64,000 nucleotides of DNA from Methylomicrobium sp. (GTDB lineage: Bacteria; Pseudomonadota; Gammaproteobacteria; Methylococcales; Methylomonadaceae), in contig JAGXSU010000058.1 in NCBI GenBank assembly GCA_018333785.1, positions 1 to 64,000 of the forward strand, read 5' to 3'. This document shows, piece after piece, positions 55,068 through 59,119 of this stretch. Both the position numbers and the translations under genes were made by a program. The notes beneath the pieces were generated by a model. The model was not told where the DNA came from, made no database searches, and worked only from the letters and a program-made list of their open reading frames with translations. How positions within the stretch are numbered: position 1 is the first letter of the stretch; each line of letters begins with the position of its first letter.

Positions 55068-57053
55068 CTAAACAGACTGTATTTTGAAGGTGTTGATAAA
55101 TTCTGCCAGGACAGGGTGAACTGTTTCGATTTGGTCAATGCCACAACCAGGCCGAGGCGGAGAATATCTGGCGTAATTCAGTAAATCGGAGGTCGGAAGA
55201 TAACCTACCAGGTTCACTAATTCACCTAGCCGCAAACCTTGTTTTACCAGGTAGACAATATAAGTATGTCTTATTGATTGGGCGGATATTTCCTCGGGAT
55301 GGGACAGGCCTGCATCAATAGCCGCCAGTGATATTAATGCGGACAATTCATGGTTGCTTGACGATTGCTGTTCTTCAAACACTGGGGATTTATCGAGTTT
55401 TTCTACCAGGTCTTTCGTTGCTTTACTGAGTTTAAGGGTGCGCGGAATAGAGCCCCTCAAGGCCATTGTGTTTTTGTCGTAGTCAATATCATCAGGTTTA
55501 AGGTTAGCCGTCTCATCCAGAGAAAGTCCGCAAAGCAACAGACAGATTAACCTTTGGGTTACGCTATTGGCGTTGACAAGTAACCCCCTTAAATCACTAT
55601 CGGTAAGCTCTCGATCATGCGTCATCATCAGCGCCGGATTTTGATGTTGTTGCAGCGAGGGTAGCGGTGATTGTTGATAGTCCAGATGATTCAAACGACC
55701 ATCCTGAGGAATACCGAAGCCGGATATCATGACGCTGGGTTGATGCTGTTGCGTCCGGCTTAAATAGTCAAAAAGCCAGACACTGATCAGGCCCAACAGC
55801 AAAGAGCCTGACACCGCTATCAGGGCATCGCGGTGATAATCGGGACTGATGGGTTGTAGCGGTAACCGCGCGCGTTCGACGATTTCAACTTGCGGGTATT
55901 TTTCATACTGCTGCGTCTCAATTTGTACATACCGTTCCTGAGTTTCCCGGTAAATTTTTTCCAAACCTTCCAGATCGGATTTAAGTCTTTCGTGTTCCGT
56001 GAAACGGGTACTGAAATCGGCAGCTAACTTTTTATGAGCATTGAGTTGCTCCTTAATGGCATTCACTGTTTGACGGGCCGCGGCATATTCCTGTTCGGCC
56101 TCTGAATGGACTATCTGTTTGCCAAAATGACTTTTACTTTCTATTTCATTTTCAAGCTTTTTGATTTCTTCGGGAAGTTGTTTGATGGCAGGTTGCAAGG
56201 CCATAAATCCTGGGGTATAGCGCTGTTGGAATTCGGCCAGTTTTTCTTTAAGTTGCTGCAAGCGAAGCTCAAGCGCTGCCAGATTGGCTTGGTCTTGTTT
56301 GGGTACAACGACCTTTCCTTCGGCGATCGCTTTGTTAATGGCTTCAAGTTTGGCTTTGGCTTTAACTTCTTCTTCACTCGCGTTATTTAGAGAGGTCGTC
56401 AATCCTTTCAGTCTGGCTAAGACATCGTTTTCATCGCGCCCGGTTGAGATAATGTCATGCTGATGACTGAATTGAGTCAATTCCGAACGGGTCTCTTCGA
56501 TTTTTTGTTCTAAAGCCAGTAGTTCCTCCTTAAGCTTTTGCGTGGTACCGCTTTTGTTTTTTTCAATCTCCTCTGCACGCGCATCGCTATAAACATCGAT
56601 CCATGTATTAATCAGTAAAGGCAGGAGTCCAGGTTCAGTGCTTTCTGCCAGCATCCTGACCAGATTCGTTTCCGGAATGGGCTGTACCTGCAAGATCTGA
56701 TGAACCTGGGACATGTCCATCTGTATTTCGGGGCGTGTCAGTTTAAGCCGCCTGATGGTTTCAGTCAGTAATTCCTGGCTCAACAAAACTTGCCGTTGAA
56801 TGGCGACATGCTCTACATCAGGGACCTTGCTCGCTTGATCGATAGCCGTCATTGCCGAGGTAAGTAAGGTTGCTGTGCTTTGAAAAATGGCGGGGCGGCT
56901 GTAACTGAAAATCAGGCTGATTGAGGCCGAACAAACAAAGACCATCAAAAAAATAATCAACCTGGGCGAGCGGTACCAAGGCGGTTGATTTACGGTTGGA
57001 ATGCCGGACGGGTTTTTTTCAATGATCTCTATGTGTGGGGGGTAAATGTTCAC
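55068..57053 (-). CDS. Wzz/GumC-like polysaccharide co-polymerase fused to a degenerate tyrosine-recombinase-like C-terminal domain
   Basis: Two TMs (IIFLMVFVCSASISLIFSY; DALIAVSGSLLLGLISVWLF) flank a coiled-coil periplasmic Wzz region. The C-terminal ~180 aa (genomic ~55068-55613) resembles integrase: RLICLLLCGLSLDETANLKPDDIDYDKNTMALRG..ISAQSIRHTYIVYLVKQGLRLGELVNLVGYLPTSDLLNYARYSPP. Confidence 0.78.
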   Translation of the reverse strand: MNIYPPHIEIIEKNPSGIPTVNQPPWYRSPRLIIFLMVFVCSASISLIFSYSRPAIFQSTATLLTSAMTAIDQASKVPDVEHVAIQRQVLLSQELLTETIRRLKLTRPEIQMDMSQVHQILQVQPIPETNLVRMLAESTEPGLLPLLINTWIDVYSDARAEEIEKNKSGTTQKLKEELLALEQKIEETRSELTQFSHQHDIISTGRDENDVLARLKGLTTSLNNASEEEVKAKAKLEAINKAIAEGKVVVPKQDQANLAALELRLQQLKEKLAEFQQRYTPGFMALQPAIKQLPEEIKKLENEIESKSHFGKQIVHSEAEQEYAAARQTVNAIKEQLNAHKKLAADFSTRFTEHERLKSDLEGLEKIYRETQERYVQIETQQYEKYPQVEIVERARLPLQPISPDYHRDALIAVSGSLLLGLISVWLFDYLSRTQQHQPSVMISGFGIPQDGRLNHLDYQQSPLPSLQQHQNPALMMTHDRELTDSDLRGLLVNANSVTQRLICLLLCGLSLDETANLKPDDIDYDKNTMALRGSIPRTLKLSKATKDLVEKLDKSPVFEEQQSSSNHELSALISLAAIDAGLSHPEEISAQSIRHTYIVYLVKQGLRLGELVNLVGYLPTSDLLNYARYSPPRPGCGIDQIETVHPVLAEFINTFKIQSV

Positions 57054-57109
57054 CGTTGACCTCCTCCTGTCATAAATGCGTGGTTGAGCAGATACTTTGA
57101 TTATTCAGC

Positions 57110-57196
57110 GTAGGTTGGGTAGCATGCTTTTCGCAACCCAACAATTAACGCCATGGCCTTGAATTGTTGGGTTGACTATCGCCAACCGCAACCTAC
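57110..57196. repeat. Inverted REP pair (BIME-like)
   Basis: gtaggttgggtagcatgcttttcgcaacccaacaatt ... aattgttgggttgactatcgccaaccgcaacctac, same layout as the RAYT-flanking REPs. Confidence 0.75.
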
Positions 57197-57412
57197 ACAG
57201 TGCATCACCTTTGTTTTGTGGCGCTGCTGAACAGTTTCAATCCATTTATCTTTTTTAAGCCGCTTGGCTTTATAGATTAAAAAGTGTGTGTTTGATCATG
57301 CTCTTTTTTTTTGCAGCTAAGCAAGTGATTTTTCCCCTGCAGATGGCTAAAGACAGCCACTTATTTTTAAAATCGGGTCATACCCAAATCAAACACACTC
57401 ATAAGGCCGTCT

Positions 57413-59119
57413 TTATGGTTGAGTAATCTCCTCTTTTGCGCTGTTCGGCCGATACAAAAAGGGCAGTGCCATAATCAGCAGGCAAATTAGCCAAATGACC
57501 AACTGTTGATTGCCCAGAGTGAAAGACAGGGCAACCCGGATACGTTCAGCATTGCCTGGATAAGCTTGGATTAAGTCCCGTGCGACGACAAACGCATAGG
57601 TTTCGCCAATGACCAAAATAGGGGCCATGACAAGCAAGGCGTAGCCTAACCTAGTGTCATGATTTATTCGATTGATGCCCGTGCCGATCAGATTTTCGAT
57701 AGACACTGATTTAATGGAAAGCTGTTTTGACGCTAAAAAATGGGTAAAAATCAGAGCTATTAAGCTGATGACAGGGATTGCAGCCAATTCGACCGGAAAG
57801 CTGATATAGCGGCCATTAATGGCCAGGCCCAAGGTTTTGTATAAAGCAAATGCGCCAAATACAAAGAAGATACGGTACAGCCAAGTGCCTAATTTAGGAT
57901 GGATGGCGTTTTGTGTTAACTGATTAATCAGCTTGAATAAGATTAAACCGCTGAGCGCAGCATTGAATAACGCGCCGGTTAAAGTAATAAATCGTTGCCA
58001 ATGGCTATAGCTGGTGTAAAACAGCTCGTCGATCTGAACGATCAGCAATACGCCAAGCAGCTGGGTAAAAACCAAATAACCCAAGGCGATTTGCCAGTTT
58101 ACAGTGAGCAGCTGTTTACGAAAGGCAAACGCGACCATCAGCAAAAAGAGTGACGAAAAAATACAGCGTTCATACCAGTCATCATTTTCATAGACGGGCC
58201 CGGTAAGCGGGAATACTTCCTTGCGTTCAGATGAATACAAGCCCCAGTTGGCGCCGACCACGCCTTCCAGGTTGCTCTTCCACGGCTGATTGAAAGCCTC
58301 CACAATGTTGTAGTCGAAACCGTTTTCCGTTGCGACTTTAATCAGTCCCCGGATAAACATGGCTTCATTGACAATACTGGGCACTGCCGATCCGCGTTGC
58401 CGTCCTTTGCCCGGCCAGCCGGATTCGCCAATTAGAATGGGTTTTCCGGGGCTGATTTGATCGGCTTCTGCGCGAACTTGCTTGTAAATCCGGTCAATAT
58501 GTCCGGGTGCCTCTTCGACAGGAATAGGCTCGTCTTCCCAATAAGGCAGAATATGAATGGTGATAAAGTCGACTTCTTTGATCAGTTCCGGATGTTTAAG
58601 ATACATGGACCAAACATCGGCATACGAGACGGGCTGCTTGACCGCTTGTTTGACGCGGCGGATATAGTCCAGCAGTTGTTCCGGTTTCAAATCACCCCGC
58701 AACAACACTTCATTACCGACAATGACGCGCTTAATGACATCGGGATACGTGTTTGCGGCGTGGATAAGCGCCTCAATTTCCTCATTGTTGTCTTTTTTGC
58801 CATATCCCAGCCAGGCCCCCTGTATCATGTTGAGGCCGTATTTCCCGGCAAGCTTGGGCGTGACGCGCATATTTTCAGCGCTGGAATAAGTTCTGATGGT
58901 ATGCGTTTTATCAGCCAGTAAGCGTAAGTCTTCATCTATTTGCGCTTCGGTAGCAAATTTTTCTTCAAGAGGACTTTGGCCTTCCCTGAACGGGGCGAAC
59001 GATAAACTGTTCAATTTGCCCTCGGGAACGTCTTCGCCAACGTTCTGAGGCTGATTGAATAGCCAGCTGATGCCAATATTGGACAGGATGACTAAGACGG
59101 CAATGACTATAAATCTCAT
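57413..59119 (-). CDS. GH17 glycosyl hydrolase domain with C-terminal multi-TM region
   Basis: LSFAPFREGQSP, IRTYSSAENMRVTPKLAGKYGLNMIQGAWLG, VIVGNEVLLRGDL, ILIGESGWPGKGRQRGSAVPS, NIVEAFNQPWKSNLEG; then about 8 TM helices. Confidence 0.85.
   Translation of the reverse strand: MRFIVIAVLVILSNIGISWLFNQPQNVGEDVPEGKLNSLSFAPFREGQSPLEEKFATEAQIDEDLRLLADKTHTIRTYSSAENMRVTPKLAGKYGLNMIQGAWLGYGKKDNNEEIEALIHAANTYPDVIKRVIVGNEVLLRGDLKPEQLLDYIRRVKQAVKQPVSYADVWSMYLKHPELIKEVDFITIHILPYWEDEPIPVEEAPGHIDRIYKQVRAEADQISPGKPILIGESGWPGKGRQRGSAVPSIVNEAMFIRGLIKVATENGFDYNIVEAFNQPWKSNLEGVVGANWGLYSSERKEVFPLTGPVYENDDWYERCIFSSLFLLMVAFAFRKQLLTVNWQIALGYLVFTQLLGVLLIVQIDELFYTSYSHWQRFITLTGALFNAALSGLILFKLINQLTQNAIHPKLGTWLYRIFFVFGAFALYKTLGLAINGRYISFPVELAAIPVISLIALIFTHFLASKQLSIKSVSIENLIGTGINRINHDTRLGYALLVMAPILVIGETYAFVVARDLIQAYPGNAERIRVALSFTLGNQQLVIWLICLLIMALPFLYRPNSAKEEITQP

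Follow-up and report, generated by a model that had tools for sequence, protein, structure and literature searches.

Gene organization at the locus

The window analysed here is a stretch of 64,000 nucleotides from a contig of the methanotroph Methylomicrobium sp. It contains an uninterrupted open reading frame of 661 codons at 55068-57053, located on the minus strand; the plus strand of the same interval is full of stops. A first-pass annotation, made from the letters alone, had reported this reading frame without giving its strand, together with the motifs CGLSLDETANL, AQSIRHT, LVGY and NYARY, which are all found in the translation. An ATG located upstream of the GTG start codon is out of frame. 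The features of the gene are as follows.

55068..57053, minus strand: whole gene, 661 codons plus stop, GTG start (reading frame, sequence)
57060..57068, minus strand: Shine-Dalgarno-like AGGAGGAGG, 6 nt 5′ of the GTG (sequence)
56898..56966, minus strand: TM1, residues 30-52 (AF2 model, hydropathy)
55839..56897, minus strand: periplasmic co-polymerase domain with a long coiled coil, residues 53-405 (AF2; Foldseek matches to Wzc, WzzE and KpsE; TIGR03007, 8e-22)
55758..55838, minus strand: TM2, residues 406-432, preceded by the Pro-rich PLQPISPDY (AF2; P404 and Y406 invariant)
55617..55757, minus strand: disordered cytoplasmic linker of 47 residues, 433-479 (pLDDT <50 at 434-478)
55071..55616, minus strand: degenerate tyrosine-recombinase catalytic-domain fold, residues 480-661 (profile, AlphaFold, Foldseek)
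55512..55529, minus strand: former box I GLSLDE, residues 509-514, Arg-I replaced by Ser; Gly in 56/56 members, Glu in 54/56 (family alignment)
55263..55280, minus strand: former HxxR box QSIRHT, residues 592-597, His-II lost, Arg-II (R595) kept (family alignment)
55173..55175, minus strand: Tyr627, at the nucleophile position; Tyr in 43/56 members (family counts)

A chimera or an assembly error is ruled out by the many independent genomes that carry the same fusion. Just 5′ of the gene, at window positions 57100-57220, lies a REP/MITE-like repeat of about 120 bp with the palindrome CAACCCAACAATT/AATTGTTGGGTTG; some 40 dispersed copies of this element, 75-94% identical, are present in the genome.

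Polysaccharide co-polymerases (PCPs) are usually, not universally, encoded in a polysaccharide locus. The neighbours of the fusion gene in the window (genes for a GH17-like membrane protein, a transglutaminase-like protein, a GST and a transaldolase) do not form such a locus. They vary among the lineages compared, where no conserved operon was found, and an operon-based function was dropped for this reason. Other PCP-like proteins, one true TIGR03007 member among them, are encoded elsewhere in the window's genome. Lacking recurring neighbours, and with other PCPs located elsewhere, the fusion protein is therefore an orphan co-polymerase. The GH17-like protein, which has several membrane helices, is encoded upstream on the same strand (57413-59119); only in the three genomes of the genus does its gene adjoin that of the fusion protein. 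A few relatives have a gene for a family 2 glycosyltransferase directly downstream of the fusion gene (L039:10565-11254, L037:6998-7732, L042:7660-8349).

The N-terminal part is a polysaccharide co-polymerase

A Wzz-like succession of membrane helix, coiled coil and membrane helix had been read from the sequence, and this layout was borne out by AF2, hydropathy and Foldseek, residues 1-432 constituting the PCP part. The full-length AlphaFold model comprises TM1, a periplasmic alpha/beta domain with a long coiled coil, TM2, the disordered linker and a compact C-terminal domain. Its overall pTM is 0.34, so that the relative placement of the domains is not fixed in the model. Searching with it, Foldseek retrieved Wzc (the best PDB matches), KpsE and WzzE alongside XerA and other recombinases. 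Two transmembrane helices surround the periplasmic alpha/beta and coiled-coil domain, as is typical of PCPs, and the Pro-rich stretch ahead of TM2 and the Gly motif within it (PLQPISPDY...GSLLLG) are both present, with P401, P404 and Y406 conserved.

In single-sequence NCBIfam searches, co-polymerase models matched residues 34-438 (TIGR03007, 8e-22, 77 bits for a cut-off of 279; EpsF TIGR03017, 5e-11, 42 bits for a cut-off of 423). The TIGR03007 score and the separate true member in the same genome rule out membership of the XrtA/PEP-CTERM chain-length family. The Pfam Wzz and GNVR models remained below their gathering scores (PF02706, 11.2 versus 25.5 bits; PF13807, 14.5 versus 27.7 bits), a gathering score being a detection threshold and not a structural criterion; the PCP assignment is carried by the fold and the NCBIfam matches.

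The C-terminal domain has a tyrosine recombinase fold

The tail of about 180 residues had been likened to a tyrosine recombinase. This resemblance is borne out by sequence models, by a profile search of the PDB and by the structural comparison that had been proposed as a check. Modelled alone with AlphaFold, the domain reached a pLDDT of 85.3 and a pTM of 0.84. XerA was its best Foldseek match (5e-6), and the matches listed were all tyrosine recombinases or inactive kin. A profile built from 35 relatives matched Xer and integrase chains in the PDB, down to 2.8e-12 for the archaeal XerC-like 4a8e. With the single sequence, the NCBIfam models for XerA (1.4e-7) and XerD (5.3e-7) matched over residues 474-619, below their naming cut-offs. 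The Pfam Phage_integrase model also scored below cut-off, yet 28 of the 35 family members match it at E<=0.1 (best 1.1e-6). The resemblance exceeds chance, and the PDB profile and Foldseek matches rule out an unrelated fold for the tail.

The catalytic-domain fold of tyrosine recombinases is thus present, whereas the N-terminal core-binding domain and the basic DNA-binding clamp are absent, their place being taken by the disordered linker to TM2. Formation of a ring by exchange of C-terminal helices, as in recombinase tetramers, was also considered; it is weakened because most homologues stop soon after a conserved HPAL motif, without the long final helix seen in the window protein.

The active site has been lost across the family

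Active-site positions were compared between 35 family members (56 in a wider set) and 21 ordinary recombinases, ten of which come from the window's own genome. The box I Arg, present in 21/21 controls, is found in 0/35 members, where the residue is Thr or Ser. His-II shows the same distribution (21/21 and 0/35) and is often replaced by Glu or Asp, while the box III His is present in 20/21 controls and 3/35 members, and the hairpin Lys/Arg/His in 81% and 15%, respectively. Arg-II is retained in 34/35 members (51/56 in the wider set), a hairpin Arg in 35/35 (55/56) and the catalytic Tyr in 33/35 (43/56). Arg-II alone thus remains of the RKHRH pentad, next to a Tyr at the nucleophile position (Y627). 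The degenerate, inactive recombinase first proposed from one sequence therefore holds for the family, which as a whole has lost Arg-I, the hairpin Lys, His-II and the box III His.

Loss of Arg-I is by itself no proof of inactivity, because the CTnDOT integrase, which also lacks the box I Arg, employs another Arg (PMC8138268). The fusion domain might likewise be a non-canonical active recombinase or topoisomerase. However, the domain also lacks the Lys, His-II and the box III His, and it is acidic; we consider cryptic catalysis extremely improbable. From the combined loss of catalytic residues and the lack of a core-binding domain, recombination by this domain appears very unlikely.

The retained residues could have found another use. 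Arg538, Arg595 and Tyr627 may bind a phosphate ligand, for which undecaprenyl phosphate, a nucleotide-sugar or a second messenger are candidates, and report substrate supply to the co-polymerase. Their conservation (55/56, 51/56 and 43/56), when the other catalytic residues are gone, is consistent with such a pocket. Nevertheless, the domain lacks Arg-I, the Lys and both His, and 11 members, of which at least some belong to the genus that later lost the domain, have Leu instead of Tyr. The retained residues may be structural. We regard a role of this kind as unlikely.

The domain is acidic

All 56 members measured have an acidic C-terminal domain, with a net charge of -2 to -12 (pI 4.2-6.3), a value that leaves room for a local basic patch. 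The catalytic domains of the 21 ordinary recombinases are all basic (+1 to +11, pI 8.1-10.5), and the two ranges do not overlap, even inside one genome. Basic positions of the recombinases (columns 67, 103, 106, 118 and 123) have become neutral or acidic, whereas new charged positions have been fixed in the family: R/K135, R/K139, E142, E144, D100 and D111 (domain numbering; add 469 for the full protein). These are partly located in the helix pair adjoining the old active site.

It had been proposed that the domain links export to the nucleoid or to transcription through DNA binding. A precedent exists in MrpR (YopR), the master repressor of SPbeta, in which an inactive tyrosine-recombinase fold acts as a DNA-binding repressor (PMC10516654), and the conserved Arg-II and hairpin Arg could serve a fold that binds DNA without cutting it, coupling export to the chromosome. 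However, the DNA bound by MrpR is proposed to lie in a basic groove formed between its two domains (PMC10516654), one of which, the core-binding domain, is missing from the fusion protein. The catalytic domain of the phage phi3T homologue, which we used for the charge comparison, is basic (+5, pI 8.9), as in ordinary recombinases, and the fusion family has lost both this charge and the basic DNA-contact positions. The proposed DNA link is therefore unsupported, and we judge a tether to DNA quite unlikely, a shade more so than the phosphate pocket. The acidic charge and the new conserved charges suggest instead a protein surface.

Distribution, loss and selection

Searching genomes for the fused architecture, as had been suggested, showed that it recurs in Methylococcales and, in the class, phylum and order samples, also in several other families of Gammaproteobacteria. 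The domain was found in 62 of the 201 Methylococcales genomes sampled, representing 23 of 48 genera, nearly always in a reading frame of about 635-840 aa. Family members separate clearly from ordinary recombinases (E<=8e-37 versus E>=2e-12 in one search; the weakest member, in another search, scored 1.2e-30). No fusion was seen outside Gammaproteobacteria in the class and phylum samples; few candidates were scored per genome in these searches, so this absence is no proof. The genes in which the domain was seen without the PCP part all seem to be broken or fragmentary. In a few genomes (L053, L160, L162/L163), the fusion gene is present in copies that appear frameshifted or fragmented. Spread of the fusion by plasmids was considered and gave no plasmid match. 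The window's genome carries a second fusion copy with 43% identity (L033:6894-8846, G000:C62). This copy adjoins a SWIM/SNF2 helicase gene, and a helicase gene also lies beside the single copy of several relatives.

The PCP part is present in 78 of the sampled Methylococcales genomes and lacks the domain in 16 cases, 15 from one genus and one gene running off its contig. A tree built on the PCP part alone (71 rows) places the sequences of this genus that lack the domain in one clade (support 100/94), nested within domain-bearing relatives; its 14 sequences (L140-L151, L052, L179) have kept the PCP part. The two other changes of domain presence on the tree correspond to contig-end or fragmented genes. 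The domain has thus been lost cleanly once, in one sub-clade of one genus, and, the PCP part having been kept there, is not essential to it. Some domain-bearing members of this genus have Leu in place of the Tyr.

The dN/dS ratios are 0.04-0.35 for the domain and 0.06-0.12 for the PCP part (0.25-0.35 and 0.10-0.12 in the window's genus). The domain is under purifying selection and mostly less constrained than the PCP part. It could be a vestigial passenger, accidentally fused and kept merely because it is harmless; the clean loss and the faster evolution of the domain in the window's genus would agree with this. However, the domain has persisted from the deepest members in the Gammaproteobacteria through to Methylococcales, its G, E and R columns are invariant or nearly so, dN/dS is well under 1 and new charges are shared family-wide. 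We give the passenger only a slim chance.

A probably recycled recombinase fold in an envelope protein

Many related bacteria have retained the fusion, whose recombinase fold lacks an active site and the DNA-binding charge; the fold was therefore probably reused for contacts between proteins. We think it fairly probable that the protein is a PCP of Wzz/GumC/XrtA type in which a domesticated, non-DNA-binding recombinase fold serves as a cytoplasmic assembly or regulation module. The observations underlying this reading are the two folds, the conservation of the fusion over an order of bacteria and further afield, the loss of catalytic and DNA-contact residues, the acidic charge and the purifying selection. 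By analogy with other PCPs, the N-terminal part would oligomerise in the inner membrane, where it may act on the chain length or export of an envelope glycan. The dead fold would hang beneath the ring on its flexible linker, where Wzc has its BY-kinase, and would serve in assembly or in interactions with other proteins. Conserved and carrying new charges, the helix region LV[RK]QG[LI][RK]LxELExIVG by the old active site would probably form the contact. Such a domain would recombine no DNA and probably bind none. On these sequence grounds, scaffolding at the membrane, also raised by the first-pass annotation, or regulation there appears preferable to a link with DNA.

Co-polymerases are classed partly by their cytoplasmic domains, and the fusion adds to their types a domain of unexpected origin. 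There is perhaps an even chance that it represents an undescribed PCP class, ancient in part of the Gammaproteobacteria, in which a former DNA-binding enzyme, now dead, has become an acidic module anchored in the membrane; by protein interaction or phosphate sensing, this module would perform the regulation that the kinase exerts in Wzc. In the open-access literature, which leaves out most subscription journals, we found no published account of a PCP and recombinase architecture, nor any of a membrane-tied tyrosine-recombinase fold stripped of its DNA-binding charge. If our reading is correct, this is a clean case of a mobile-DNA enzyme turned into a structural part of envelope biogenesis. The clade from which the domain was lost in nature provides a convenient comparison for its role.

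Comparison with known systems

The nearest named PCP families by sequence are TIGR03007 (XrtA-system chain length determinant) and TIGR03017 (EpsF), whose models, unlike the fusion protein, cover no recombinase domain. The protein resembles the BY-kinase PCPs (PCP2a) such as Wzc in its membrane-periplasm-membrane layout with an extra cytoplasmic domain past TM2. In Wzc this domain is a P-loop tyrosine kinase, whereas the fusion protein has no C-terminal P-loop kinase with a Tyr cluster and carries a degenerate tyrosine-recombinase fold at the same position, as had been noticed at first reading. With XerA, XerC, XerD and the phage and integron integrases, the domain shares the catalytic-domain fold and sequence homology; it differs from them in its lost active site, acidic charge, lack of a core-binding domain and anchoring in the membrane. 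MrpR is similar as an inactive fold without Arg-I, His-II and the box III residue (PMC10516654). In contrast to the fusion protein, it is soluble, possesses a core-binding domain and binds DNA, and its phi3T homologue has a basic catalytic domain.
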